The notes under the pieces were generated by a model. The model did not search any database. It was given only the letters and a program-made list of their open reading frames with translations, and had not been told where the DNA came from. Source: Prorocentrum cordatum (taxonomy: Eukaryota > Sar > Dinophyceae > Prorocentrales > Prorocentraceae). Taken from it: a DNA stretch of 64,000 nt. Both the position numbers and the translations under genes were made by a program. Position 1 is the stretch's first letter; the number at the start of each line of letters is the position of its first letter. This document shows positions 3-44,695 of the stretch, piece by piece. The stretch lies in assembly GCA_963575745.1 (NCBI GenBank), contig CAUYUJ010006557.1, positions 573,501 through 637,500 on the forward strand, written 5' to 3'.

Positions 3-1829
3 AGCGCCCAGGTACCCTGTACCTCAGCCCTGCGAACCTCTCCTCGGGACTGCTGCCACACGTGCCTGCCCGCCGCGCCATCGTGCAGCAGGGCAGCCGT
101 GATTCAGTCGTCTGCCACGGAGACAGGCAGACGAAGGCGGGTGGACCCCGCGTGGCACAGACGACAGCGCCAGGCTCGCAGCAGAGCTAGAGTGCTAGTT
201 CAAGTTGCCGCAGCAGCAGAATTGTTACGACAACACCATTCGAGTCCAATTAGTGCTAGACAGGGATCACGACAATTTCAGGACAAAGGGGGAGGCACAA
301 AGTCGGTACCATGGCAGCGCAAGCAACAGAGTTTCAAGAAATTGTGGGAATGTCCAGCACGCGCATGTGCCAACCCCTGGGATTCGTACACATGTAAAAG
401 GTGTTTCCCATCCATGTCTCAGCAGTCGAGTGAGCGACCATGGCGCACGAGATCAGCATCGCGTGCCCCGAGAAGACGAGCCGCCTCAACTCAGCCGACA
501 CATGGTGATGCAGCAAAATCCACGGCAGGAGATCAGCCAGAGCCCCATGACGATCTCATACCTTTGTTACCAGCCACGCCTGAGATTGCCACCAGTCACA
601 AAAGATGGAGAGATCCGCCAGAGGATCCTAAATTGCTGGGAGAATATCGCAGAGCTATAACATCCACCATGGAATCGTTGGAGAGACAGATTCGATGTGC
701 AGATGCTCTCACATTAGATGCCCAGCAAATTTCGGCTCTGCAAGAAGAATATGCAGTTGTGTTGTATCAGTTCATGCACAGCCGTTCGCCACAGGCACGA
801 GTGACTAAACAAAGGTGATTCGTCAATCGATGCCGCAGACGCCTGACAGATGCCACTGCGAAGCTGAATCTTTTGTATGAACAGATCGACGCAGCAGAAG
901 TTCAATGTCAGCATTTGCAAGAAGAAGTTACACAGGCAGAGCAGTTGCTTGAGCACTTCGAGGAGCTCGAGGATTCGCTACCAGTCATGTCAGCACGAGC
1001 AGCTAATGACCAAGACAACGATGATGACATTCGCATGGCCGAGGAAGATGGTCCCGCAGGACATTTTCGACCAGGACATAGAGCTCCGACACCTCAGTCG
1101 CCAGGAAAGGCATCAGTTGCCTCAACTGCAGCGACCATTCCCTCGCGCACAGGCCAGCACGCATGGCCCATGGTGTCAGGGAAAGGAGCCAGCCAAGCAG
1201 ATGTAGCAGCCACCCCTCCGAGGGCCGCTGCGCAGCCTCATCAGCAGGTAGCACCACCTGGAGAGGCGCAGTCTGCGGCAGCGAATGACATCGCTATGCC
1301 CACACTGCTCGCAGCACTGCAACAGAGCAATGCGCAGCTGCTCGCCAACATGAGGAACTTCCAGACCGCCGTGAACACGCTGCAGACGGATATCAGCACG
1401 CTCAGGACGGAGAAAGAGGAGGACATGAACAAGGTGCGCCAGGCCGCAGTGGAGGCAGCCCAGGAGGTCATGGCAGCGCAGTCGAACGGCCCCAAGAAGT
1501 ACCAGCAGCCCGCCGACCCAGTGGCCCAGCAGGCAGGTCGTGCCCGCATGGCAGCGCTGCTGCGAGGCCGTGGCACAGCGAGATCAGCATCCCCGCGTCG
1601 ACATGAAGATAGTGGACAAGCAGGTGCCAAGACCATGCGCACAAGCACGGCGGGAGAAGGATCGATGGGAGCAGGAGCAGCCGACATCGCCCAGAGGCCG
1701 CTCAGGCGGAGGACGCAGCCAGGCAGCCTACGGGGGCTGAAGCCGCGCCTGCAGGCAAGGATGACAGCGACAGCGAGCTGTTGGCCGCTGTCGCTGCCAC
1801 GCCAGCCACCGCACCAGTTTTTTCGCTAG
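3..1829 (+). pseudogene. LINE A ORF1-like protein (zinc motif plus coiled coil), interrupted by in-frame TGA
   Basis: Two open stretches, 3-815 and 819-1829, share one frame and are separated only by a TGA at 816-818; the codons after it (FVNRCRRRLTDAT) read on smoothly. The frame is open to the window edge, so the true start lies upstream. A paired-cysteine motif, ECPARACANPWDSYTCKRC, lies near 348-404 and resembles zinc-binding motifs of dinoflagellate LINE ORF1 proteins. Residues encoded around 873-965 (LLYEQIDAAEVQC, QLLEHFEELED) and 1290-1480 are heptad-like and glutamine/alanine rich, suggesting coiled coils. The expected role is nucleic-acid binding and RNP assembly, as for LINE ORF1 or gag. 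The C-terminal part frays into another frame near 1,690, so its end is uncertain. Confidence 0.6.
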
Positions 1830-3844
1830 GGGTCGTGTCAGAAGCGTCTCGACCCATCTTGAATTCAAATATTCCAATCCAAGATCCTGATTTTCCAGCT
1901 AGCCCATTCCCCAGTGAAGAGGACAAGCCAACGGAAAATCGCTCGGAGCACCTCGGATACCAGATTCACAACTACCCAGTGGAATCAACGCCAGGTGCCC
2001 CCTATTCTCCCATGCCACCGCTCCACTCTACCAAGAAGTTGCTAGAGAAGAAATGGCCCATCCAGCTCTCCAATGATTTGCTGTCGTGGGCTCAGTTTTG
2101 GCATTCATCTACAGTCTCAGCCTTCGCCAGTCTTGTACCTTTCGACCCGAAGGCCCAGATCGACCATCTCAAGATATACACAGATGCGACGGCAGGAACC
2201 TTCAAACATCAGGGGCAGATGTGCTCACCAGCATGGGCTTTATGTGTTCTTGCTGTCACCACTCTCGGGGTCTCTTTCCTAGGATATCTAGCTGGTCCTT
2301 TGCAGGGATGGGATGCTTCTGATGCGAGAGCCCCGTTAAGAGCTGAGCTGGAAGCGGCCATTTGGGCCACAGCTTGGCTTTTGCAAGCACCAATGCGTTG
2401 CAGACAAGCTCCGGTGTGCTTTTACACGGACAATATGGACGTACTCCGTATATACCAAGGAGGATATGTGCATGGCGTGCTGCTACCTGCTAAGACACTA
2501 CTTGACAGTCTTACTCAGATCATACGTGCGTGTGTGATTGTGGTGGCGTACGAGCACGTGCATGGGCACACTGCATATCCGTGGAACGAGTGCGTGGACA
2601 CGCTTGCGCGCCTGTACGCCATGCGTGTATTGCCTGATTTCATCGAGCTTGCGTGGAGATCCCTCATACATCAGGACCCCCACCAGAAGGCCCTACCCTG
2701 GATTTGGATACTTTTCTCCGACTCCAGCACGCGACAGGCATACCCACCCAACCACGGTACGCCTCTCCCTACGCCTCAGGTCCCCACTACGGGTATTCGG
2801 GAAATCCTACCGATCCCTAAGAGACCCCCACGAGGCCGACATGTGTTTGCCATGGGCTGGATGGCCATGGCCAATCTGCTCTCGCTGGACCCCCGAGCCT
2901 ACAAGGGTTCCCGACAGGCACACGACAAGTTTCAAAGTTTCAACGCCACAGGCCGCATGATGCAGCTGGCGGGGCAGTTTGCGCAGCGGCCCTACTTCAT
3001 AGTAGGCACAGTTGAGACGCGTCTCAGACGGACAGGCACCTCCGAGCTTGGCCCGTACTTCCTGTTGCACGCCCAGGCTAACGACTCCGGAGGGGATGGA
3101 TGTACTGTATGGATCAACACACACTGGGAGTATCAGGAGGGATGCAACGCACAGCCTTCTCACTGCCAGGTGCTACATGCAGCGCCAGATATCATGATCG
3201 TGGCCGTAAGGGCCCCTTCGCTCTCACTTTGTGCATGTGTTGCCCCAGCACCGCATTCGCGCCGACCCCCAGCACATATACGACAGTGGTGGAAACAACT
3301 ACAGCAGCTTATTCCACGGCACAGAGGTACTGCAGAGCATGTTGTTACACTGATAGATGCCAATGCAGCAGTGGGATCACACACAGATGCACATGTGGGG
3401 CCCATCCATGCGGAGCCTGAAAATCTACCGGGGCACAGTTTCCGCATGTTCCTCCAGGGCACAGCCCAATGGGCCCCATCCACCTTTTACGAAGACCCCT
3501 CGGGATCTGCGGGTACCTGGACGGCCCCAGGAGCACGCGCCACACCTAAGAAGCGTGACTACATAGCGGTGTCTTCTGATATACGCGTGCCTGCGCAAGG
3601 AGTCGATCACGGCATCGACCTCACTGTCACGCAGCCAGACCAACGTGGTGGCAGCATGCTTACTTTTTCCCACCGTCCAGCTTCGTGCCAACAGCACCGA
3701 GGCCCTACAAGGTGCAGCACGATCCTGCCATGTACAAGGATCCAGTGTCCGCCAGGCTATTCCAACACTTGCTTACGCAGTTCCGACAGCCCGACTTTGC
3801 AGTACACAGTACAGATCATGTCAAGGCCTGTGAAGAATACGTGA
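1781..3844 (+). pseudogene. LINE A ORF2 N-terminal part: RNase H followed by AP-endonuclease-like (EEP) nuclease
   Basis: The frame begins with a TTG at 1781 but continues upstream without a stop to about 1,690. An RNase HI domain is clear: IYTDATAG (Asp about residue 135), RAELEAAIWA (Glu about 189-191), YTDNMDV (Asp 217) and HVHGHTAYPWNECVDTLA (Asp 273), so the whole catalytic set is present. From about residue 350 an exonuclease-endonuclease-phosphatase domain follows, with VETRL (metal-binding Glu, about 411), VTLIDANAAVG (about 525), KKRDYIAV (about 593) and GVDHGIDLTV (about 609). The nuclease should nick the target for priming and RNase H should remove the RNA strand. RNase H ahead of the nuclease and RT is unusual. 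The frame loses homology after about 3,650, where coding moves to another frame. Confidence 0.8.
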
Positions 3845-24013: not shown

Positions 24014-24108
24014 GTGTCGAACAAATAATGAGACCGCAAAAAAACCCTATCAGGGCTATAGGGCGATTGAGCTATAGGGCTATAGAGTGGTAGGGCTATA
24101 AGGCTATT

Positions 24109-24142
24109 CCTTGAGATTCCAAAGTTGTACTATAATGCCTGG
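24109..24142. repeat. Left terminal inverted repeat (34 bp)
   Basis: Begins CCTTGAGATTCCAAAG and ends ATAATGCCTGG. It matches the reverse complement of 33,292-33,325 at all 34 positions. Outside it lie several CTATAGGGC words (24,056-24,100). Confidence 0.9.
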
Positions 24143-24325
24143 CTGTACTATGCTGCGGGGGTGGAACTGTTGTTTGGGTTGATCTTTTTTCTGCGCAGGG
24201 AAAAAATAGTTCGACACAGGATTTGTGCTTTAAATTGGTTCGAGCCCCAACTGGGAGGGGTCTCAAAACCCCAACTGGGAGGGGCTTCGTACATGATGAC
24301 AATGATGATGCCCAAAGTGTTTCTT

Positions 24326-26343
24326 TCAAAGCGCGCGCAGAATCGGTTGGCCACAGAACTTCGCGATGCATGCCAGCGAAAATGCCCTCATGGATCTCTT
24401 CTGACCCCGCCTTCGGCCAAAAGCGGCTACAGATCCACCGAAATCCTCGCCCCTGTAATTCCAGTGTTTCGCTGGCTCGCCGCCTTCCATGCAGAGCTCC
24501 TGGAACGTGTGCATTTTCGGCTTAACTTTGAAATGCGTTGGGGGCGCTTCTTCCAAAGCTGCCACCTGCGTGCCAAACTTCATTGAATGCTCACGAAGAA
24601 GATTTACAGCAAATGGATGGTTATCAGATAGCGCGTCGCAACGCCGACTCAAGCTTTTCACCCCGGCGTGAATTGACGATTCCACAGCTGCCCGCTGGCC
24701 GGCGCCATCCCGACGATCAAGGAATGCATCCGCAATTTCCATCGCCCATGGAACCATGTGCCTGAGCATCCCCGCGCCGCACCTCATCTTAGCCGTCTTC
24801 GCCTTCTTCCCCTTCACGACGCCCCGCGTCAGCTTCGGCAAGCGGCCGGTCTCCTCACCTGGTGGCTGCCCGTCGTAGAACGCCATCGGATGACGATGCA
24901 GCGTCAGCACGCGGGCTTTCTGAGCAGCTCCTGCAACCTTTCTGTGCGTTACGAGGTACCAGACCAAGCCGCCGATGAAGTCAGCCGCCGCTCCAAGGTC
25001 AACGACGCGCAGCCAGTCTAACTTCAGCAGCTTCTCGCTTGCAACGGCACTTGGAAGAGAGGGCACACAGTCTCGCCTGAAGCAACGATCTTCCAAATGA
25101 TGTCCGACCGCGTGCGGCGGTTTGTTCTCCACGGCGCGTCTCTCCCAGTCTGCGACTTCACCTGAATGGGGGATTCTCAAAGCGGTGGCGCCCACCTCCT
25201 GTTCCTCCCTATGCTCCTCCTCCTCCTCCTCCTCCTTCTCCTCCTCTTCCTCCTTCTCCTCCTGCTCCTCCTCCCCCCCATCCTCCCCCCTCCTCCCCCC
25301 CCCCCCTCCTTCCCCCTCTCCTTCCCGCCCGCAAGACGACGATCTCCTGTAGCAGGGGGGCAAGACGGTTTCCTCCATAAGTTCCCTCCCTCGAAAGGGA
25401 TTTTCATCCCACCCACCCCCTCCAAGAGGGGATTTTGACTTATAAGTTCCCGTGATGGTTTGGGTACCCACGGGCCTCGCCCTTCTCGACGTTGCACAGG
25501 AAGCAAATCTCGTCGTCCTGCCAGCCAGGTAGCTTGAGCACCTCCTTCATCATCTTCCAGTCCCCCTTGATCTGGCAAATCACCCCGCCAATCGGTAAAG
25601 AACCCTGCTGGCGCTTCCTCCAGGTGTCTGTGTTCACGACAAAAGGGGGCCCGTCGTGCCGCGCCGTCGGCCAGCGCTTCACAGCCAAATGAATTAAACT
25701 CCATTGCACCACGGCGAAGATATCATCAAATGTGTTGGGGCCAACATGCTCTTTGAGGAACGCAGTTCAACGGCGCGCGCATGTTTTTCCAGCGGCCTGC
25801 AGCACCTGGCAGCATGATGCTGATGATTTCTGCGCTCATTGATCGGTCCCAGAAGCAGGGGACTCCGTCCTGCCACGCGCCCAAGGCCACGAGATCGTCG
25901 CAACCGCTCTCAGCCCTCGCTTTTTGCACGTGGCGCAAAGACACGCCGTCGAGGCTCGACGTCTCCAGAAGCACGCTCTCATCGCCGAAATGATGTAGCT
26001 TAGCCAGGATTTCGCGCGGAAGCATCATAGCAATATCCATCAGCTGCTCTGTTTCAGACTTGGGGCCCCAGCCCCTCACCTTACAGTGATACAGCGGAGG
26101 CCACCCCTTCTTGAAGAACTGGCGCCTGAATCTCCTGGCAGCGTTTTTCATGCCCCGCGTGGTCTCAGAGGTCTGCAGGTCGGCAACGCCTGCCGCAGAC
26201 GCAGAGACGGCGTCATTGATCAACTGAGCACCGCGCTGCCCGCTGATCGCGCTGCTGCTGATCAGGTCCTCCACGTTCGCTCTCAGCCGCCTCTGCGGCG
26301 GCAACTGCAGCCTGTCATAAGGCAACTTACGCTTCGAAAGCAT
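24326..26343 (-). pseudogene. CACTA/Plavaka-like transposase candidate (dinoflagellate high-copy family)
   Basis: The start ATG at 26,343 begins MLSKRKLPYDRLQLPPQRR, which matches the N-terminus of a family I recall as numerous in dinoflagellates. It continues RANVEDLISSSAISGQRG, SLDGVSLRHVQKARAES, LGAWQDGVPCFWDRSMSAE. A frameshift near 25,760 leads to TFDDIFAVVQWSLIHLA, RHDG, then KGDWKMMKEVLKLPGWQDD and ICFLC. A further break and a (TCC)n tract (25,200-25,330) precede LDWLRVVDLGAAADFIGG, FKVKPKMHTFQELC and HWNYRGEDFGGSVA (24,480-25,020). The GDW...GW...C-x2-C segment resembles the D...C-x2-C part of CACTA Tnp2/Plavaka transposases; this is inference. The gap around 25,190-25,450 may be an intron rather than damage. 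Confidence 0.55.
25200..25335. repeat. (TCC)n tract inside the transposase-like gene
   Basis: A pyrimidine tract on the + strand that would add poly-Glu/Gly on the minus strand between conserved blocks. Its position and the nearby hairpin at 25,417 suggest it is intronic. Confidence 0.7.
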
Positions 26344-26868
26344 GCCGACGGCCCTCGAGCCCCCTCGCGGGAGGCGAATGCGACTACGGATGTGCCTTGA
26401 GCCAGCGCTACGGAAACGAACGGATGAGGCTACACGATATTTCTCTGTGCCGCGCCCCTCCTGGAGGGGACCCTGCAACCTCCTCTGCCACGTGCCCTTC
26501 CGCCCCCCCCCCCCTCCCCCACCCCGCCCCCCAACCGCCGCCGCCGCCTGTCCAGAACCTGCCCGCCTCGTTCTAAGCGCGGCGATTGCTGTCCAACGCC
26601 CTTCTCCGCGACACCCCCCCCCCCCCACCCCCTGCGGCGAGTTTTTTTTTTTTTGAGATTTCAACCGGGGCAGGCGCAGAAACGCGCGGCCCCTCACGAA
26701 GGGGTCCTTTGCGAGAAAGGATACTGGCGCGATGTTTTTTTTTTTTTTTTCTTTTTTTGAAATATGGGTCGACGCACATGCTGCAATGAACGCGACAGCT
26801 GTCGGGCGAGGCAGTACTTCCCACCCTACACATGTGAGTGAAAATTGATATGCGTTGATGCCAGCAGC
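26344..26868. other. Spacer between two minus-strand genes of the TIR element
   Basis: Contains hairpins at 26,455 and 26,690, poly(C)/poly(T) runs and the upstream side of the transposase-like gene. No coding signature; promoter elements were not recognised. Confidence 0.5.
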
Positions 26869-28285
26869 TCAACTGAGGAACCTCTTGAAGCGCTTGAGCG
26901 ACAGCTGGGTCCCCTCGTACATGTGCTCCATCGTGCTGTGGGCGGCAAAAGCCTCGTCCTTCAGCTTCACGTGCATCTCCGGATCCTTGCCGACAGGAGC
27001 AGCGCTGTCAAATTTTGCCAGGGGGATCTCCATTTTCGCCTCGTGCTCATCCGCATTGTCCACGCACTTCTTGCATTCATTCGCCCAGTTCTCGTACTGC
27101 GCGCGGTCGCTCTGATCCTGACCTGCAGCCTTCGCGAGCAACTGCGAAGGGGCCCTGGGGCACGCAAATAAATTTACACAAATAAAAAGATGCCCCATAT
27201 TTTCCCATATTGTATGGGTTTTTGTCTTCCCGCCCAATTCCTATATTTTCCTATATTTTCTGGGGAATCGACGATTGATTGCGTCTGTGTGTTTTTTCCC
27301 CTCCTGAAGCTGAGCCTTCGCATGCTTCATCTCCTTGAGCTGCTTCTGATACTTGAAGAGCGTTCACATCAGCAGGGCACGCAACGACAAAATCAGCATT
27401 GATGAAAAAAAGACTAGCGGACGATCCCCTCCAGGAGGGGCAGCATGCGAGACGACTGAAGGCACCCCCCATCATAATCATAAGGGCCTGGCGGAACAGA
27501 AAAGGGGAAGTGCCGATGGGAGCGGCTGCCGAGGGCCGCACACGATCTCTTCCTTCTTGCTGGTGATCTGCGGCCAGTGCGGATTCTCGAGCTTCGCCTC
27601 CCCCTCCGCTGGCCCACCGGAGCTGGGCGACGGGAGCTGGGGCATCCTGGCGCCCGCGGTTTCGAGCTGCTTCATGTTCTTCACGTTGGATGATCCCTTG
27701 AGGCTGCGGGAATCTGTCGTCACCAGCTTGTCATCGCCCATGGTGGCGCTCCACGAAGTACCACTGCTTCCGTAGAGGTCTGTTATTTGGATCTCCCTTT
27801 ACAGGGTATCCTTCTTTGGTTCCATGCTCCTCGCTATTCTCCTCCCACCAGTCCTGCGCGAACTGCATGGCCTCCTCGATGGTACTAAAATCTGTGATGC
27901 GGAGGCCCTTGAGAGCCAGCGCCTGCGACACGTTCTGGCACCCCCTCTTGGCAGACTTGGTGTGCACCTCCTCGTTCGCGCAATTCTCTTCGAAGGTGGT
28001 CAGCCAGTCCAGCGTCTTCTCTGCGTCGCTTGCGAAAGACTGCAAGAAACGCTTCCGATCGGTTGGATCTTTCATGTCGTTCCACATGGCCTGCGCCGCC
28101 TTGGCCGATTCTGCGCTGGACGTGGACTTGCCGTTGGCGTCCTTCTTCTCGGGCTGGTAGCGGAGCCACGACCTCATCTTGTCGGCCTCCTGCTTGTCGA
28201 GCCCTTCGCCCTTCGGAGCAGCCTTCGATTTCTTTGCCGCTGCTTTGCCTGCAGGGGGGCCATCGGGCTTCCTCTTCGCGGCCAT
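26869..28285 (-). pseudogene. Uncharacterised dinoflagellate multi-exon protein (KMRSWLRYQ family)
   Basis: The ATG at 28,285 begins MAAKRKPDGPPAGKAAAKKS, a Lys/Ala-rich N-terminus, then KMRSWLRYQPEKKD, FLQSFASDAEKTLDWLTTFE and LKGLRITDFSTIEEAMQFAQ. A one-base shift near 27,748 leads to MGDDKLVTTDSRSLKGSSNV (27,741-27,555). Further exons appear at about 27,363-27,285 (YQKQLKEMKHAKAQLQEGKK) and 27,155-26,869 (YENWANECKKCVDNADEHEA ... MEHMYEGTQLSLKRF, stop). The intervening segments carry in-frame stops, AT-rich DNA and one hairpin each or nearby, consistent with introns; a GT..AG pair fits the 27.36-27.56 kb gap. I recall this family from dinoflagellates, without known function. The mostly charged helical composition suggests a soluble scaffold or DNA-binding role, which is speculative. 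Confidence 0.5.
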
Positions 28286-28774
28286 GCTGCACAACGACGA
28301 GAGAAGGCTGCCCGCCAGGAGCAGAGGAGCGATGCTGGCAGGGCCGCCCATGGCTGCTGTGAGCGGAAGCGTACTCAGCGATTGAAAGAAAAATCTAAGC
28401 GAACCCGATGGCCTTGCAGCCGCAACAGCTGCGAATGGATTGCAAGTTGGTCGTCGCCGTCGTCGGCGTCGTCGAGGCATCCCCTCAAAGAGGGGTTCGC
28501 TCCTCTCCCCTCCAAGGGGTTCGACGCCCTCGAGGGGTCTCCTTCCCCTCCCTTCCCCTCCCAGAGGGGCCCTTCCCCTCGCGAAGGGGCAGCGCGCTCC
28601 CGCGGGAAAGGATCCCCCCCCCCCCCCCCCCCTTTCTCGCAAGGGCGGGCCTTCCCGTCAGCAATGGGGTTCGCCATGGCTACATCGAACCCCGCCCCGC
28701 TTCAGAAACGAACGCTTACCCCTCAACAAGGTGTCGACCGCAGATCTGGATCCCGCTGCAAGCGAATCCTACAG
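28286..28774. other. Spacer rich in G/C hairpins
   Basis: At least four C-run/G-run hairpins lie between 28,481 and 28,660, including a C18 run. No gene seen; it is the upstream side of the KMRSWLRYQ-family gene. Confidence 0.5.
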
Positions 28775-28912
28775 GAGAGATTCTCTTAAGAGAATTCTCT
28801 TAAGAGAATTCTCTTAAGAGATCCGTTGGTTTCGCCTGATACATCCTCACAATTATCTCAAGAGAGTTCTCTTAAGGAAATTCTCTTAAGAGAATATCTC
28901 CTTAAGAGAATC
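28775..28912. repeat. Tandem palindromes of TTCTCTTAAGAGAA
   Basis: Two clusters (about 28,777-28,820 and 28,862-28,910) of the self-complementary 14-mer TTCTCTTAAGAGAA, three overlapping units in the first and three variant units in the second. Separated by 40 bp of unrelated sequence. Confidence 0.85.
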
Positions 28913-29199
28913 GGTCTGGCCTTCAACCTGCCCTCTGAGAGGGGTTGCTGAGGATCCCCTGCGGTGAAGGGGGTTCACTTATGACGATGTCGTCTGTTGC
29001 TCTGGCGCGAGATATCGTGCTCCTGTATATGGATGTCGGCGGCTCAGGGCGCGCCGACCTCAGGGCTCGGTGTCCTCGGGCGGATGCGAAAACAAATGGG
29101 GAGACACATTGCGGAGAACCATCAACATAAATCATGGCGATGAGGGCGCTGGCGACGAGCAGGAGCAGGAGGAGGGGACGACAATGAGGAGGAGGAGGA

Positions 29200-30062
29200 G
29201 AAACTGTCCTAGCTCCTCTTCCGCCGCTTCGACCCGGAGCCCTTGCTCTTGTCTGCGTCCTTGTCCTTGTCCCCCTTCCGCGCCTTTTTTTCGCGGGTTG
29301 CTCCTGTCCTTCTGCGGCCTTCGCGGCCTTCGCTTCTGCTTCGGCCTTCGCTGCTGCTTCGGCCTCTTGCGCCTTCGCTGCTTCTTCTGCCTCTTTTGCC
29401 TTCGCCGCCTCCTCAGCTGCTCGCTGTGCTCGCTCCGCCTCCTCAGTTGCTCGCTGTGCTCGCTCCTCCGCGGCCTGCGCAGCCGCCGCGGCTCTCGCGC
29501 CCCTCTCTGCCTTTAGAGCCGCTACGGCCTCCGCTGCTTCCCTCTCTGCCTTGAGAGCTGCTTCGGCTCGCGCGGCTTGCTCCTCGGCGCCCTTCTTCAT
29601 CGCAGCGTCTCGTTGTGTCTGCTGCAGCCGCCTCTAGCGGGCGATCAGCTGTTGCGCCCTCCTCTCTGCTGCCTGCCGCATGCGTTCCTCGATCGTTTCC
29701 AGGGTTGCTGCAACATTTTCTGCCTCCGCCAGATGGCGCTGGAGCCTGGCGCGGCGATTCCTCAGCTCGGCAGTGAGCCTGCGATGCATCTCCTCGTCCC
29801 ATTCCTCGCCCGCCTCTTCATCCATCGACTCCTCCTCGCTCTCTTCGTCGCACTGTGAGGAATCGACTTGCTCCGCTTCGTCCGCCTGGAGTGGCGGCGC
29901 AGCTGCTGCTGCTGCTGCTGCTGCTTCTCCGTGCGCTTCTGCTGCACGCGCGGGCGGTTCTGCTGCTGCTGCTGCGGCTGCTGCTGTTCCTCCTCCTGCA
30001 GCTGCGTCGGCGGGTGCTGCTGCTGCCAGCACTGCCGCGGGCGGTGGGGGCGGCGGTGGCAT
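29200..30062 (-). pseudogene. Ala/Glu/Arg-rich coiled-coil protein, interrupted by in-frame TAG
   Basis: The frame from 30,062 encodes a Pro/Ala-rich N-terminus, DSSQCDEESEEESMDEEAGE and LTAELRNRRARLQRHLAEAE..IEERMRQ. A TAG at 29,634-29,636 interrupts it, and the same frame continues RRLQQTQRDAAMKKGAEEQA and then over 80 residues of AEEAERAQRAAEEAAKAKEA type, ending in the basic segment PAKKRRGRGTRTRT. The heptad pattern predicts a long coiled coil. Codon-level homogeneity across the TAG argues for a recent nonsense change. I do not recognise a defined family; part of the Ala/Glu pattern could be repeat-driven. Confidence 0.4.
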
Positions 30063-30449
30063 TGGCTGTAGGGGCGGTGTTGCTGTTGTTGCTGCCCCTC
30101 CGCTTCTCCTGCGGCGCCGCCCATTTCCTCGGGGCGCAAACTACTTCAGCTCCCCTCACGATCAGGGGTTCTCGTTGCGTTAACTCTCCTTCACCTCGCC
30201 CCCTCACGAGAGGGGTTTCTCCTGGCATTTCACCCCTTGCACAGGGGATCGGAGGGGTCGATCCCTTCTCGTCTGCGTGGAGGGAGGGGGGGAGGACGGT
30301 CCATCAGCATGTCGCGCAGCGAGTTCTCCCTGCCATCGCATCTGCGCCGCCAGTGCCTTCAGGGTGCAGAGTTAGTTATCATCGACGAAAAAAATATCCT
30401 CAGAACATAACTTCAAAAAAAATCCCCGATGCTGAGGGGTCTTTAGGTT

Positions 30450-30790
30450 CACACCCCGATCGGAACATATTTTACCCTTGCGTCGCCTCGCTCGCTCCAC
30501 CTCGCTTTTGCCGCCGCGCCACCGCCTGCCGTTGCGGTCAGCGTCGCCCCGCTCGTGGAACCACCGCGTCGCGTGGTGCTCCTGGCAGGGCTTCGCCACG
30601 CATGCGGGCGGCGTAGTAGCTCTTCTTGCCGCACTGCCAGCATCTGCGTGCATCCTGGCGAAGCCAGAGGCGGTGTTCGGAGCGGCTGTACTTCAGCCAC
30701 CACTGCTTCGCGTCCTTCTCGAACTCTCCCTCCTCGGACTCCTCGCCGAAGTCAGGCGCGAAGCCGTCCTCCTGGGAGCTGGGACATCAA
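30450..30790 (-). pseudogene. Small Cys/His-rich exon (putative zinc-binding), frameshifted
   Basis: The minus strand encodes EDGFAPDFGEESEEGEFEKD, WWLKYSRSEHRLWLRQDARR, CWQCGKKSYYA; after a one- or two-base shift it continues ACVAKPCQEHHATRWFHERG. The order C-x2-C...C-x4-C-x2-HH suggests a zinc-binding module. An acidic lead and a Trp-rich segment precede the cysteines. It is flanked by CCCC/GGGG hairpins at 30,823 and about 30,424. It may be an exon of the gene whose other parts lie at 33,075-31,591 or 30,062-29,200; splicing cannot be proven here. Confidence 0.45.
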
Positions 30791-30867
30791 ATCGTCATGT
30801 GCACAGGTTTCAATCGATCTCCCCCCTCTGACAGGGGCGTCTGCTAGCGAATCCCCTCATGCAGGGG

Positions 30868-31590
30868 TTCCTCACGCGATTTCCCCCCTCCGCCGCCCCC
30901 TCCCCCGTGTCCTCGCGAGGCCGCTTGCCGCCGCCGCCGCCGCCGTCGCCCGGGGGCAGTCCGCCGCCGCAGGCGCCAGGCGCCACCATGGCGCAGGCCT
31001 GGGAGTCAACCACAATTTATACTTTCGAATTCCCACTCCCCCCCCACAGGGGCCCCCCTCTGCCACCTCCTCTCCACCTGTTCCCCCCCCCGCGGCCTGG
31101 GGCGCCGAGAAGCGCAGGATGAGCGCCCGCATGGCTGCGAGCTCGCGTCGGGGCGGGGGGCGGCACCCCAGGCGCTGCTGGTTGCCAGCTTTATCAGACG
31201 GCTGCACATAACAAGAAAACCAAACAGAAGACGGATGGGCTTCAGGAGGGGGCGAAAGGCCGCACATCTTGCCTTATCTTAAATGCGCCGCCTGTTTCAC
31301 TTACATGCCGTGGCTGCCCCCTCCCACAGGGGATCCCCTTCGCCCATGGGGGCGCTGCTAATACTCTGTTCAAACACCCTCGAAGGGTTCCCCTGCTTTC
31401 AATAGCGTTGCACTCTGTCGCGCGATCGCCCCGTCACAGGGGGCCCCCCTCACGAAGGGGCGCGCGCCCCTGCGATGAAGGGGCCTCGTCTCTCTCTTGC
31501 CAGACAACCGAAGAAGACGACGAAGACGGCGGCAATGCTGATGGATGTGATGATGATGGATGTTATGCTGATAGATGTGGTGATGATTTC
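30868..31590. other. Non-coding spacer with hairpins inside the TIR element
   Basis: Holds GCC-rich DNA, several C-run/G-run hairpins (31,317; 31,446; 31,467) and a GATGATGGATG-type short repeat (31,540-31,580). No coding signature. Confidence 0.5.
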
Positions 31591-32245
31591 TTAGCCATCT
31601 ACGCGCTGTGCTACTAAGCGGCCGGCCTCCGCTTTCGCCCCCTCCTCCGTCACGGCGCCCATGAACAAAGCCGCCTACAGCTCTTCCCCAATCTCCCTGA
31701 GCGCATCCTCATCCAAGGTGTCCTTGTGCCTCTTCCCGCCGAAACTCACGAATTGGTTCTTCTCGCCGTGCTTCCGCCTCAACCCGATGGCCTGGCCCTT
31801 CTTGTAATACATCGCGCCGCGCCCTCGGGGGCCGCGGACAGCGGGGGGCGCAGCGTCGACAGCATCTGCTTCCACGGGGACGTCGGGATCCAGCTGCTCT
31901 TCTTCCTCCCCCCCCTCCTCGTCCGCATCCTTCTCCACCAGCGGCTTCGGTTGAGCGCCTGCTGGTGTTTCGGCCACTGCGGGCTTCTTGAGCACCATGG
32001 CTGCCGGCCCCCCCCTCTTTGCCACCGCCTTCGCCTTCGCCTTCGATCCCGCCGCCCTCGCTGCAAGCAGCGCGTTGGGCTGCTCCGTCTTCTCCTCCCT
32101 GCCGTCGGGGAACGCCGCTTTCAAGAAACCATCGTCTCCTTTGGCCAGCTCCCCCCGCTCCTCCCTGTCCGCGAACTTCAGCAACAAGCACATCGGATCG
32201 GAATTGAAGTCGAAGAACTTCGCCAGGGGATCCTGGGCGGGTAGA
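31591..32245 (-). pseudogene. Second exon of a dinoflagellate KKPA-type protein, with in-frame TAG near the end
   Basis: After a plausible AG splice acceptor (CCGCCCAG at about 32,246-32,253) the frame reads DPLAKFFDFNSDPMCLLLKF and DGFLKAAFPDGREEKTEQ. A Lys/Ala segment with VLKKPAV follows, then an acidic stretch (EEGGEEEEQLD) and MYYKKGQAIGLRRKHGEKNQ, VSFGGKRHKDTLDEDALREI. A TAG at 31,675-31,677 is followed in frame by AALFMGAVTEEGAKAEAGRL, VAQRVDG and a TAA at 31,591, which looks like the natural C-terminus. I recall this C-terminal YYKK..IG.R.K....SFGGK pattern from dinoflagellate predicted proteins of unknown function. Confidence 0.5.
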
Positions 32246-32337
32246 CATTTCTTTGCCCCAATGGGGTTATTCAAACGCACGACGCCACAATCTACTGCCC
32301 CTCCTGGAGGGGATCAAACACAGGTGCGCGTTGTTGT

Positions 32338-33075
32338 TCAAAAACAGGCAAAACTAGCATGCCCCCTCCTTCCAGCCCCCCCGCCCCCCTCCGATCGATC
32401 CTCCTTCGGGGCGTCCGCGGCGGGCGGTTCAACGAACTCGCCCTCCGACATGCCGACGTCCTGCGACGAGAACGCCATCATGGGGCTGCTGGCAACCTTC
32501 TGCTTCTTCGGCTTCGGAGGGGGGCTGATGCCGAACGCGTTCTTGATGACATCGCGCCTGCAGTCCCCGCTGGAAGACGCGGGAGCGCTGGACGACGCGG
32601 CGGCCGCAGGAGCGCTGGACGACGCGGCGGAAGGCGAGACCTCCAGGTCGGAGCTGTCGTCGGCGCGTTTGCCTTTAGATCCCGCTGTGCTTGGGCTATC
32701 CTTCCCGAACTTCAAACCCATGGCTTCACCTAGCAACTTCACGTGCGCATCCAACTTGCTCCCCGTCCTCGACTGGTAGAATTTGTTGCACGTGTGGCTG
32801 AATGAATTGGTTACTTCCTGGCAAAAACGCCTGCACTCATCCGCGTGCATGCTCGGCTTCTGCTGCAGCACAGCGCTCTGGAAGCTCTTCCACCTGACGC
32901 GCGTGGCGTGCTCTGCAAGCCCAAGGAGGAGAGGCATGTTGTTCTTCATGAACTCATCCGTGTCCCCCTTCAGCTGGCAACGCTCGATCAAGCCAATGTG
33001 CTGTCTCACCAGCGACTTCAACTGATCGGCGCTCACCGTGGAAGACCGTATCTGCATCTGCTTGTCCTTGGCCAT
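32338..33075 (-). CDS. First exon of an uncharacterised dinoflagellate protein (partner of the 31,591-32,245 exon)
   Basis: The ATG at 33,075 (MAKDKQMQIRSSTVSADQLK) was preferred to one 16 codons upstream because the earlier residues look non-conserved. The helical N-terminal domain includes SLVRQHIGLIERCQLKGDTD, EHATRVRWKSFQSAVLQQKP and FCQEVTNSFSHTCNKFYQSR. It is followed by a Ser/Ala-rich linker, a basic PPPKPKKQKV segment (nuclear-localisation-like) and SSQDVGMSEGEFVEPPAADA. The frame then runs into a G-rich tract that is probably intron start. The intron to the next exon would contain the hairpin at 32,298 and a second at about 32,256-32,268. No function can be assigned. Confidence 0.45.
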   Translation of the reverse strand: MAKDKQMQIRSSTVSADQLKSLVRQHIGLIERCQLKGDTDEFMKNNMPLLLGLAEHATRVRWKSFQSAVLQQKPSMHADECRRFCQEVTNSFSHTCNKFYQSRTGSKLDAHVKLLGEAMGLKFGKDSPSTAGSKGKRADDSSDLEVSPSAASSSAPAAAASSSAPASSSGDCRRDVIKNAFGISPPPKPKKQKVASSPMMAFSSQDVGMSEGEFVEPPAADAPKEDRSEGGGGAGRRGHASFACF

Positions 33076-33291
33076 GTTGGCCGCGCCCGCACGACATGCG
33101 CGAACAAAGGAAGCGCGATGCACTCGAGCCTTCGCTGCTACGGATCGCGCATGTGCGGATATGATATGTGATGCCCCTCACTCAGGGGATCCAAGAAGGA
33201 TGCGCTAACGAAAAAAATACAATACACTCCAAAATCCCGGGTTGCTCTATAGTGCGGTACAGGGAAATCATGGGGTTGATCTATAGTTCGT

Positions 33292-33325
33292 CCAGGCATT
33301 ATAGTACAACTTTGGAATCTCAAGG
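33292..33325. repeat. Right terminal inverted repeat (34 bp)
   Basis: Begins CCAGGCATTATAG and ends GGAATCTCAAGG; exact reverse complement of the left repeat. CTATAG words occur just inside (33,246 and 33,280). Confidence 0.9.
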
Positions 33326-33336
33326 TTGGGCTACAG

Positions 33337-40225: not shown

Positions 40226-40317
40226 ATACCCCTAATCATCATCCTGGCCGCGATGGCTCGCCGCTGATGCTCCGCTGAGCCGTCGGCAGGGGTGCCGCTC
40301 CCACGGCTGAGGTGCCC

Positions 40318-42564
40318 ATGGCAACGCGGTGCCGCCTCTGCCTGGCGAGCGGCGTGGACGGGCAGGCGGAGCCTGGTGGGGACCTATGCGGTGCTCATCG
40401 GGCAGCGGCTGCCGGGCAGCCGTCCTCCGCACGGCCGGCCGTTCCAGATCGGGACGCCAGGCCCGCGGTCGAGGACCATTTCGGGCCTCAGCGAGCTGCG
40501 AGGTCGGCGAGGCAACAGCCGTACTCCGAGGCGCCAGTGTTGACAGTGCGGAACGCCTTCATCGACGGTATCGCCGAAGACCGGCCGCAGAGGCGGCAAC
40601 TCCGGCTGAACCTCACCGAGGGCGACGAGCCGCGTGGACTTGACGCTCCTGTTGGCGCAGATGCCTCCATGTCCGAGGGCGGCGCGCCTGCTGGGAGGCG
40701 CACCGCCGAGGACGCCGGCCTCGAGATGCTCCTCGGCGAGCTGGATCTGAATCCAGAGGCTCGCATGGACCAAGACGCGGGCATCCCCCTGGCCGAGATG
40801 CGCCGAGTCCGAGCACGTGACGACGACGTGTCGACGCCGATGGCACGCGCTGGTGCAGCGCATGGACGAGGTGATGGAGGAGCAGAAGGTGGGGGAGGAG
40901 GAGGAGCTGGACGGGCAGCTGCCGGTGGCCCGGAGGGTGTCGGTGACGCAGCCCGCCTCGATGATCCGGCGGCCATGGCGGGCGGAGGAGAGGACGGTGG
41001 GGAAAGAGGCAATCGCAGGCCTGCGCGCGCATCGGCGGCGGCGAGGCTGCTGCGAGCCGAGATCGCTGCATCTCCCCCTCCTCCTCCGCCAGCCGAGGGG
41101 GCCGCCTTCCCTGGCGGCGTCATCACATGCACTCTTTGCCAGCAGCAATTCGCTAATGGGGCCCCGGGCTTCATGCGGCACCTCACGGTCAGGCATGCCG
41201 GCTGCAGCATCGACAACGAACTCCTGGCCACGCTGCGCGGCCTCCAGCGTGTGGCCTGCGCAGGGGCTGGGTGCGGCGGCATCAGGCGTGCCGGCATGAC
41301 ATCCTGCAACCACTGCAGGCGCAGCACTCCCACCAGACCGCTGGCCGTTGGGGACCTGATTGTCGGCCCGCGTACGGGTGTGGCCACTCTGGCCGCAGAA
41401 CCCCCCGCAGGGGCATCGCAGGCAGGGCACGATGCCAGCGCCCACGCAGACGACGTTTCCCTCCCTCCCGGCTTCATCGAGAGAGTGCGGCGATTGCCGG
41501 GTGGTGCCACGCAGGTGCACATCCCCATCGCATTGAGGGTCAGACACGCCCGGAGATGGGCAACCACACTGGAGGGTATGGAAAAGGATCTTCCGGGTTG
41601 GACTGCGCTGGAGGAGGCGCGTTCGCGTTTGCTCCTCACAACCCCACCTCAAGGCATGCACGTGGAGACCGAGATCGCAGTGCGCACACGCATGTGGGAA
41701 GCGAAGCAGTTCGAGGCTTTACCGTCTCGCCTTGAAGCGCAACGCATTCTGGGCCCGGGGGTCAGGAGAGGCAGGAGGTCCAGGAGACGTGACGACGCCG
41801 CCGAGGACAAGAAACGCAGGAGCAGGAAGCAGACAGCAGAGGGAGCCTACCGCAAGGCCATCAACACCATGACCTCCGAGGATGCACAATTCTCTGCACA
41901 GGCCCAGGCACGACATGCTTCGGAGCTCATCCCGAGGTCCGAGCGGCCCGATGCTCTGTGGGTCCGCCCAGGCGGCGCCCAGCCCTCCGACGGGAACTCC
42001 ACCTCCGAGGGCGGACACGGGAATCGACCAGACGGCAGCGCATCTCAGGAAGCATCTCTTGGACCTGCCTCCCACAGCGATGACCATCCCCTCAAAGGTG
42101 TGAGGTATGCCGCCCTGACTGCCCCAGGGCCCACTGGAACCAGGGCCGAGCACGCCAAGGAATGCCTCGGGTGCAAGAGCCACGTGGTTGCTAACAAGCT
42201 CTGCAGGGTACTGCTGCGCGTGCAGGACAAAATACGACGCGGGGACCTTCGGCCAGAGGCACGGTGGTTGAAGAGGACCCGCCATATCTTCTTGAAGAAG
42301 AAGATCTCCACCACGCCACGCCCCGTGCGCATGGGAGAATTCCTTAGGGGGGCCATGGCCAAAAAGGCTCAAAAAAAGGCAGCCCCTCGACTGCGCAAAC
42401 GCTTCCGCGAGTACCACCAGTGGGGCGTCGAGATGCCTGGGGGCGCGGAGGCTTTAGTGCATTGGAGAGGCCACGTCGAGGAGATGGCGATGGACGGCAC
42501 GCTGGAGCCCCTTGTTGCGTTCGACCTGGACCTCGAGAACATGTTCGGCAGTCGAGTGGGCTGA
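40318..42564 (+). pseudogene. LINE C polyprotein, N-terminal part: zinc fingers to RT motif A
   Basis: ATG at 40,318 was chosen; the frame opens 6 bp earlier at a GTG. MATRCRLCLASG with a downstream LCGAH may be a small zinc motif. A Gly/Ala/Glu-rich low-complexity region follows. A canonical C2H2 finger, ITCTLCQQQF ... FMRHLTVRH, lies near residue 272-295, and a second Cys-rich unit, VACAGAGCGG...SCNHC, follows. Basic residues (RRGRRSRRRDDAAEDKKRRS) come before the RT. RT motifs 1-2 read TRHIFLKKK and RPVRMGEFLRGAMAKK, and motif A VAFDLDLENMFGS with the first catalytic Asp lies near 42,517-42,555. A 1-base insertion or 2-base deletion near 42,563 ends the frame. Confidence 0.8.
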
Positions 42565-44068
42565 GATTCGCGAAGCTGTTCGGCGCGATCTCGAGGAGGC
42601 AGAGGGATGGTTCCAGTGGGAGCACGAGACGCCGGAAGAGATCGAGCTCCCCTCCGGAGACGTTGCTGTTTCCGACCGTGGTGCGGGGCAAGGGGACGTT
42701 TTTGGTTCGAGCACCTCTTCGCTCACCCTCGGGCACCACATCGGGGTTCACAGGCAGCGTCACCAGGGGTCGTTGGGAGACGCTCCGAGTGCCGGGGCCG
42801 TGGACGAGTGGTTCATCGACGACGGCCAGGCCTTCGTTCGGCCTGCACTGGCCAGTGCTTGGCTTCGGTCTGTCGACGCTGCCCTGGCAGCCTTCGGAGG
42901 GCGCCGCAGCACCGGCGCAGCCTGCAAAAGCGTTGCCCGGCTCCTGTGCCCCGAAGCGCGGATGACCGAGTTCCAGGGGTGGGCCAACGGGTACATCTCT
43001 GACACGTGCCGCGTGGAGGAGGCGGCCACCGCGCCGAAGGTCCTAGGGGTGCACGTGGGGAACGCCGACCAGGAAGTCTCGGACTTTCGCGCGGCCGTCC
43101 TCAAAGTCGAGGCCGCCCGGGCGTCGATCATGGAACTGGACCACCCGCAGTGCGAGCTCACGCTGCAGCGCCGCTTCTTGGACGTCAGCAAAGGCTCCTA
43201 CATCTTGCGGTGCAACGGCGATCGGATTCCGGATTCCAGAATGCGAATTGCATCGATTCGATGACTCTCTCCGGGTTGGGGTCGAGACTCGCTGGCCGGT
43301 CGTCTTCCAGACGTAGGGTGGATCCAAGCCACGTTGGCCGTTGATGCAGGCGGGATTGGCATGCGGGAGTCTGCCGTGATAGCTCTCCCAGCCTTCATTG
43401 CGAGACGGGTATCGTCGCGACCGCTCGTGAACGAGATGTTCCAGCACGTCGAGAACGCTGGCATCGGGTCACGAGTGTCGCTCTTGCACCGCTACGACCA
43501 GCGGACCAACGCAGCACTTCGGAGATGGCTCGACTCCCTCCCCCAGGGCGCGCGGGACCAGGTCCACGACGCCGTCGAGAGGGCAGCCGAATCCGCGGAG
43601 AGGAGGTGGCGGGATTGGTGTTCAGGCGAGGAGGGCGATGGAGAGGCCAACGAGGGGGCGGAAGGCCCAGCCCGGCCGCGGGGCAGCAGGCGCCCAGCCG
43701 CGGGCCTCGTGCCAGACGCCGGCACCGAGGACCCCGAGCACCCCGCTTCCCCAGCGCCCAAGGGCGGGCCGCGGCTGCAGAGCGAGCTCGTACGCTTTGC
43801 AGATGCCACTGTCGCGCACGGCCTCCTGGCGAAGATGCGCGAGGCCGGCGACTGGGAGCGCGAGCAGCTGCTCAGCGAGCTTTCCCATCCAGACGGCTCG
43901 CATGAGTGGCTGTGGGCCGTGGACCCGAACAAGGGGAAGACGCTCTCAAAGGAGGACTTCGTCACGGCCCTGCGGTTGCGGCTTGGAGCAGCGGGTCCAG
44001 ACGACTTCGCTCCGTGCGGCAACTGCGGCAACGGGGTGATTGGGCCAGTCGGCACCCATGGGCTCTGA
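42560..44068 (+). pseudogene. LINE C reverse transcriptase palm/thumb and linker
   Basis: The frame resumes with VEWAEIREAVRRDLEEAEGW. Motif B is DRGAGQGDVFGS (about 42,677-42,712) and motif C is DEWFIDDGQAF (about 42,805-42,837), with both catalytic Asp, followed by KVLGVHVG. QCELTLQRRFLDVSKGSYIL is typical of the thumb. Around 43,230-43,300 the intended reading ELHRFDDSLRVGVE sits in another frame, so two compensating indels are likely. The frame then runs VGWIQATLAVDAGGIGMRES, a conserved post-RT segment, a Glu/Arg-rich linker and DFAPCGNCGNGVIGPVGTHG, the start of a zinc knuckle, before a TGA at 44,066-44,068. Confidence 0.8.
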
Positions 44069-44695
44069 TGCGCATGCGTGCCCAGCACGCGCGGCCACAA
44101 TGCTGTCCGCGACGAGCTCTACGACATCGCGAGCAGCCTCGATTCCACGACGGAGCGTGAGCCCACGGGCCTCGTTTCCTCACGTCCAGGGCTCCGCCCT
44201 GCAGATGTTCTCACAGGCGTTTCTGGTCTCACAGCGCGCCTTGCGGCTCTGGACGTGGGGATTGCGGCCCCTGCGGCACGCGGCGCCGGCACGGATTATT
44301 GCGAGGCGATGCGATGTCGCAAGGTCGATCGGCTCGCGCCATATGCGCACGAGCTGGACGCGGCGGGCGTCGACTACCGACCCATCACTTTCAGTTGCTT
44401 TGGGCGCCCGCATCCGCAGGCCAAGCAGCTCGTTTCGAGCTTGGCTCGCCGCGTGGCCCGGCGCAAGGGCACCGAAGTGCACGTAGAGGAGCGCCGGATC
44501 TGGTGCCGGATCTCCACCGAAATCTGGAGGCGAGCGGCGCGAATGATCCGGCGCTGCCTGCCCAGCCACGCCCAGGAGGTCGCTGATGAGGACGATGCCT
44601 ATCACGACCCAGACGTGGAATTCAGGCGCGGGCACCCTGGCAGCGTCGACCCGTCACCTGCGGGGTCGGCGTCCGCGGCCGCGCCCTCGGGTTAG
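44069..44695 (+). pseudogene. LINE C C-terminal restriction-like endonuclease (RLE) domain
   Basis: It continues the same frame directly after the TGA. A Cys at 44,069 completes the knuckle C-x2-C-x10-H-x3-C with CGNC and GTH upstream. Then STRGHNAVRDELYDIAS, RPGLRPADVLTGVSG (Asp of the R-P-x-D motif), ARLAALDVGIAAP (second acidic residue), CRKVDRLAPYAHEL (Lys) and VDYRPITFSCFGRPHPQAKQ. This matches the HN...RP-D...DV...K...Y order of the PD-(D/E)XK-type nuclease of R2/CRE-like LINEs, which nicks the target to prime reverse transcription. Without readthrough the TGA would separate it from RT. An Ala/Ser-rich tail follows, with a stop at 44,693. Confidence 0.75.

Follow-up and report, generated by a model that had tools for sequence, protein, structure and literature searches.

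What is the 9.2-kb stretch at positions 24,109 to 33,325 of the DNA studied here, where two inverted repeats enclose several uncharacterised genes, and do these genes belong together? The DNA is a 64,000-nucleotide stretch of the Prorocentrum cordatum genome (contig CAUYUJ010006557.1 of assembly GCA_963575745.1), referred to below as the window. Terminal repeats, 2-bp target-site duplications, many copies in two families, a shared gene order and purifying selection on the genes make it very probable that the 9-kb stretch represents an autonomous multi-gene DNA transposon of the cut-and-paste type, in a copy that is now broken. An initial annotation had already interpreted the repeat-bounded gene set as mobile, which is supported by inverted pairs of ends, 2-bp duplications and gene linkage. 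Several unnamed, high-copy protein families would then become parts of one identifiable mobile unit, an assignment with which gene counts can be corrected and which makes the element directly testable.

Element ends, copies and insertion sites

The left terminal inverted repeat (24109..24142, plus strand), which begins with CCTTGAG and lies on the 3' side of the transposase gene, matches the right one (33292..33325, minus strand) perfectly over 34 bases, so that both copies are identical as first annotated and the termini read CC..GG (CCTTGAG..CTCAAGG). With up to 3 mismatches allowed, the 33-bp core of the repeat occurs twice in the window, where 100 shuffles lead one to expect 0.00 occurrences. 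All genes between the repeats are on the minus strand, which bears out the co-orientation noted initially; named here by their motifs, they comprise a MAKDKQ... frame, a YYKK..SFGGK frame, a Cys-rich frame with CWQCGKK, a KMRSWLRYQ gene and transposase-like frames.

Genome searches covered the 4.13-Gb assembly (21,875 contigs). A search with 61 bases of the left end yielded 33 matches on 20 contigs. Of these matches, 22 make up 11 inverted pairs with a spacing of 8.5-9.2 kb, each on a different contig, that of the window among them. The initial annotation had proposed looking for such pairs, and had named ends occurring mostly as solo or direct copies, or unlinked gene families, as the contrary outcome; the pairs were found, about 9 kb apart, and the contrary outcome was not. 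The remaining 11 matches, on nine contigs, are truncated, rearranged or end-only copies, one of them at a contig edge; three contigs (C7840, C8891 and C19928) have element ends only and no KMRSWLRYQ match. The 11 full copies, called family 1, are 8,488-9,217 bp long and 92.8-96.2% identical in pairwise comparison (median 94.8, all 55 pairs). Their ends fall on the same base, and the ends of the ten others are 86.7-98.3% identical to the window copy over 60 bases, the perfect 34-bp extent being a property of the window copy. Their flanks are dissimilar: with low-complexity sequence filtered out, the 22 flanks of 400 bp contain one between-copy match, of 47 bp; without the filter, two flank pairs match. 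Hence, the terminal inverted repeats mark the precise limits of scattered copies, as those of a cut-and-paste transposon do. In one of the rearranged family-1 copies (L019, C14600:497000-506805) a right-end segment of ~940 bp is inverted with respect to the rest.

A second family emerged from the search with the first transposase exon, in which 150 of 734 candidates were scored; in that with KMRSWLRYQ, 150 of 765 were scored. Identity of the scored transposase exons to that of the window is 75-83% for 133, at least 86% for 12 and below 75% for 5. Three copies from the 75-83% group (C12446, C19654 and C13477), which define family 2, share 98.0-98.7% identity over 5.3-8.6 kb; C12446 and C19654 agree at 98.1% over 9,372 columns. 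The C12446 copy is 9,312 bp long, has the terminal repeat CCTTGAGACTCCAAGG, and its eight exons, as delimited here, are free of stops. The family-2 end recurs at 9 further loci, on the 3' side in 9 of 9 and on the 5' side in 7 of 9, one of them altered. Gene order is that of the window: the M and YYKK exons come first, then the Cys-rich and coiled-coil frames, the two KMRSWLRYQ exons and the transposase. The near identity of these copies suggests that family 2 is the younger one; at ~98% likeness it may have been active recently, and might serve as a genetic tool in organisms in which manipulation is difficult. On C13477, KMRSWLRYQ occurs at 122052, 136075 and 150114, i.e. in three family-2 gene sets on one strand spaced by ~14.02 and 14.04 kb, which suggests tandem duplication of a larger unit.

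Gene linkage was counted genome-wide for two gene families, KMRSWLRYQ and transposase. Of the 150 scored KMRSWLRYQ matches, 132 are followed on their own strand by a scored transposase exon at a distance of 1.2-4.5 kb (median 1,746 bp), where chance would give ~0.0002 per match, and end-bearing contigs have a KMRSWLRYQ match in 17 of 20 cases and a first-transposase-exon match in 13 of 20 (150 scored each, by contig). The co-occurrence that the initial annotation had proposed to look for is thus present, both in this linkage and in the gene order of family 2. Its claim that at least four orphan families belong to one mobile unit is supported as regards the one element; the parts themselves turn out to be exons of about four genes.

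The window copy is flanked by a target-site duplication, TT, at 24107..24108 and 33326..33327. Such duplications had been proposed as a check, and they are there: at 19 of 20 insertions (11 of family 1 and 9 of family 2) the left and right flanks agree in the 2 bases next to the element, against 20 of 380 left/right flank pairs taken from different sites; three bases agree at only one of the 20 sites. The duplicated bases vary (TT, GC, CG, TA, AG, CA and others). The count covers sites other than family-2 C14212, C14251 and C10247, whose 5' end was not found or lay outside the fetched stretch, and other than nine partial or rearranged family-1 loci (L019-L027); it includes the family-2 site C10957, whose terminal bases are altered. 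Four family-2 sites, those of the 20 that passed a periodicity filter, lie in tandem repeats, and joining their flanks minus exactly 2 bp gives the best period match (0.88, 1.0, 1.0 and 0.93, the next best among 0-8 bp removed being 0.71, 0.73, 0.36 and 0.56, respectively).

One could instead regard the repeats as the ends of a segmental duplication or as an assembly artefact, and the genes as a normal host cluster. The threefold occurrence of family-2 genes at 14-kb spacing on one contig would fit, and larger duplications may happen; we nevertheless give this explanation hardly any weight, since 11 copies end at the same base, their flanks share one 47-bp match outside low-complexity sequence, and ten of the 11 full copies carry 2-bp duplications. 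An assembly artefact or host gene cluster was rejected, being contradicted by the dissimilar flanks and the duplications.

Transposase and accessory genes

The transposase gene was read in three parts on the minus strand. The first (25726..26343, MLSKRKLPYD...) contains WQDGVPC with the presumed first catalytic Asp (25855-25875); the middle part (25440..25766) contains GDWK with the presumed second catalytic Asp (25542-25571) and a CxxC motif (25491-25505); and the last exon (24326..25177) contains the DWL(H)xxDLG region (24992-25021), KPKxH (24497-24523) and, at 24434-24457, YRxEDFGG with the presumed catalytic Glu. Between the second D and the E, the C(2)C motif is kept in 46 of 46 cases, and the first His of H(3-4)H in 43 of 43; the second position of the latter is Glu in 39, His in 3 and Asp in 1, in the register read from our alignment.

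For one relative, P0006, the predicted model has RAG1 and Transib as its closest structures, at 10-14% identity in the structural alignments, and displays the RAG1-core fold. By this predicted fold and the invariant residues it is a putative DDE transposase with a predicted RNase H fold, of RAG1/Transib-like type, which would add a distant branch to the group that gave rise to the antibody recombinase. The same top fold matches could be taken to mean that the element is a Transib/RAG-like element proper. No CACTA-type transposase is known to be in the PDB, so RAG1 is nearest there without telling which family is nearest. The termini also differ from those of Transib. The 2-bp duplication contrasts with the 5-bp CCAGG reported for one TransibSU element (PMC4411706); such an assignment is thus improbable.

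Transposase relatives occur in other public sequence sets (8 and 70 proteins), a few under the name hypothetical protein, the others nameless, and none was confirmed in viral contigs or prokaryote genomes, each searched with two short patterns (19 and 46 pattern matches). At L026:9352-9960 there is a weak match to a transposase relative (23% identity, E 3.7e-4), possibly a more distant element.

The first accessory gene has a first exon (MAKDKQMQ...) at 32338..33075 and a second one, with the YYKKGQ...SFGGK domain, at 31675..32313 (the whole open frame, exon edge approximate; YYKKGQ at 31792-31809); PDB sequence searches with these two exons gave nothing at E <0.5. The Cys-rich exon (30541..30786, CWQCGKK at 30622-30642) is followed by weakly conserved coiled-coil, Ala/Pro-rich frames (28926..30140, i.e. 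29637-30140 plus 28926-29633), which may be the remainder of the Cys-rich gene. The KMRSWLRYQ gene consists of a first exon at 27481..28351, with the eponymous motif at 28154-28180, and a second one at 26869..27370 (upstream edge approximate), with the C-terminal KRFKRFLS; all of these are on the minus strand. Its first exon opens with a hydrophobic leader, MGGPASIAPLLL (28316-28351), and a basic stretch comes next. Both recur in the KMRSWLRYQ proteins P0079-P0089 (LLLRWLGP..LVLFTVLS in most), a start that is unusual for a nuclear helper. Relatives of this protein are found in other public sequence sets (12 proteins), again few of them named hypothetical protein and the rest nameless.

Whether scanned as gene pieces of the element or, for transposase and KMRSWLRYQ, as alignments, the sequences gave Pfam matches below threshold only. 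The top one, DeaD_dimer, appeared in 7 of 13 KMRSWLRYQ proteins (best E 0.0017) and lies well under the Pfam cut-off in the one member listed in full. A polinton-like virus was considered and set aside as a candidate, with no significant Pfam match to DNA polymerase B, integrase or capsid among 10 window and 7 family-2 pieces.

Two kinds of non-coding repeat accompany the genes. An array of the 14-bp palindromic unit TTCTCTTAAGAGAA (28776..28911) lies between the coiled-coil and KMRSWLRYQ frames and has the same place in family 2, with 4 perfect 10-bp cores in the window vs 9 there. Three ACTATA motifs (33248..33305, minus strand) start 21, 39 and 73 bases from the right end, the first inside the terminal repeat and the other two present in family 2 as well. 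The subterminal motifs and the array, which are common to both families, are candidates for protein binding or regulation.

Are the accessory genes parts of the element, or captured passengers? The ratio of non-synonymous to synonymous substitution rates (dN/dS) between the families, from 13 or 14 of 14 copies per exon except for the coiled-coil, has medians of 0.24 and 0.19 for the transposase, and of 0.39 for M, 0.45 for YYKK, 0.39 for Cys-rich, 0.29 for KMRSWLRYQ and 0.53 for its second exon. By this measure, seven of the eight exons have been kept by purifying selection while the families diverged, so the genes look like core parts rather than cargo. Capture of passengers would agree with genes that show no family or function beyond weak sub-threshold matches; it is unlikely, given the same genes in the same order in two families, dN/dS well below 1, and KMRSWLRYQ relatives in other sequence sets. 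The initial annotation had left open whether the genes are cargo or machinery of one transposon family: the one mobile unit is supported, and the cargo option is disfavoured.

State of the copy and proposed mechanism

Judged from its reading frames, the window copy is broken and not functional as it stands, because of frame changes in the transposase, differences in DWLR and YRGED, and a 165-bp repeat in the second KMRSWLRYQ exon. The middle part of the transposase is out of frame with the preceding part, the last exon has a frame change with respect to family 2, and DWLR and YRGED deviate from the motifs of the relatives. Further frame changes lie within the first KMRSWLRYQ exon and at the 3' side of the Cys-rich exon. 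All 11 full family-1 copies have at least one frame change or stop, a count that low-complexity stretches can inflate. The 165-bp repeat (27145..27309, minus strand) is nested in the window copy only, being absent from the 10 other full copies. It has many relatives in the genome, with 4,853 candidates at first look, of which the 40 scored are 90-100% identical. CAG stands on both of its flanks, and splicing might remove it as an introner-like intron, the boundary being GA-AG.

In an intact element, transposase molecules would bind the element ends, perhaps by way of the ACTATA motifs near the termini, and the D-D-E metal site would cut next to CCTTGAG, probably via a hairpin intermediate by analogy with RAG1 and Transib. 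Joining of the ends to the target with a 2-bp stagger and repair of the gaps would then leave the 2-bp duplication. The M/YYKK, Cys-rich/coiled-coil and KMRSWLRYQ genes would most likely encode helper proteins, e.g. DNA-binding or regulatory ones, and their place inside the element would explain the high copy number of unnamed families.

Several points weigh against this transposon reading. As for the insertions, site L018 has no duplication (1 of 20), and an empty allele was not seen, no genome search for true empty sites having been made and the tandem repeats standing in for them. Eighteen of the 150 KMRSWLRYQ matches have no scored transposase match nearby; 4 of these are family-1 copies (C13711, C15183, C19567 and C21432) in which the exon is present but outside the 150 scored. 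As for the transposase, P0006, on which the fold case is built, is 33% identical to the read-through transposase of the window. RAG1 did not turn up when PDB sequences were searched with a profile of the transposase alignment, and hhalign against RAG1 gave a probability of 11.6% (E 0.0026, 87 columns). The sequence relation to RAG1 is thus weak, and the case is one of a relative's predicted fold. A Pfam search returns no transposase model, none being listed at E up to 1 for nine proteins; PF02992 (Transposase_21) is likewise unlisted for the nine at that level, at which weak matches are lost to the filters and that model may be overly specific. In 40 of 43 relatives, another residue takes the place of the second His of H(3-4)H. 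As for the accessory genes, the coiled-coil frame was comparable in 1 of 14 copies only for dN/dS, the sole helper model (KMRSWLRYQ) was too poor for use, with a predicted local distance difference test score of 47, and the helper functions of the three genes are guesses.

Elsewhere in the window, a plus-strand frame at 1613-3841 weakly matches endonuclease/exonuclease/phosphatase (E 7.5e-4, under the Pfam cut-off) and is possibly a LINE-like retroelement remnant, and a plus-strand chain of long frames at 40279-44692 is Cys/His-rich in places and has no Pfam match at E up to 0.001.

Relation to known systems

CACTA/EnSpm elements, with TnpA and TnpD, are large, combine a transposase with helper genes and have subterminal repeats. 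The element described here is like them in its size, in its transposase with presumed helper genes and in its subterminal repeats, and unlike them in its termini. From RAG1/RAG2, ProtoRAG and Transib it differs in having a 2-bp rather than a 5-bp duplication, in its terminal sequence (compared with that of Transib) and by the 10-14% identity of the structural alignments. Dinoflagellate introner elements are likewise mobile DNA (PMC10666404, PMC11453091), called non-autonomous DNA transposons in PMC10666404; unlike the element here, they make introns and are non-autonomous. The accessible literature found on dinoflagellate transposons and introners, or on CACTA, Transib and Chapaev, a scope that leaves aside subscription papers and Repbase, does not report the element.

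A further close comparison is with the CMCT group, for which the published description gives the motifs C(2)C and H(3-4)H, duplications of 2-5 bp and mostly CA..TG termini (PMC12730594). An ordinary, diverged new family of a known superfamily in this group (CACTA/EnSpm-Mirage-Chapaev), with accessory genes of TnpA type, is a serious possibility that we regard as rather less than probable: the 2-bp duplications fall within the range of the group, and both CxxC and the DxLH histidine are kept, whereas the termini are CC..GG, the second His is mostly replaced, and the nine proteins yield no Pfam transposase model at E up to 1. To be put at just under an even chance is a new superfamily-level lineage of RAG1/CACTA type in dinoflagellates, in which three helpers without known relatives would be standing parts of the machine and whose expansion would account for a share of the unnamed gene families and of the genome bulk. 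The element is like the CMCT group in its presumed D-D-E transposase with C(2)C after the second Asp and the DxLH histidine, and in its short target duplications. It is unlike that group in its CC..GG termini, in the Glu that mostly takes the place of the second His, and in a four-gene content without a Pfam match. Since H(3-4)H is altered in most relatives and the termini are not CA..TG, we do not file it as a CMCT member and treat it instead as a separate lineage that would work in a similar way.

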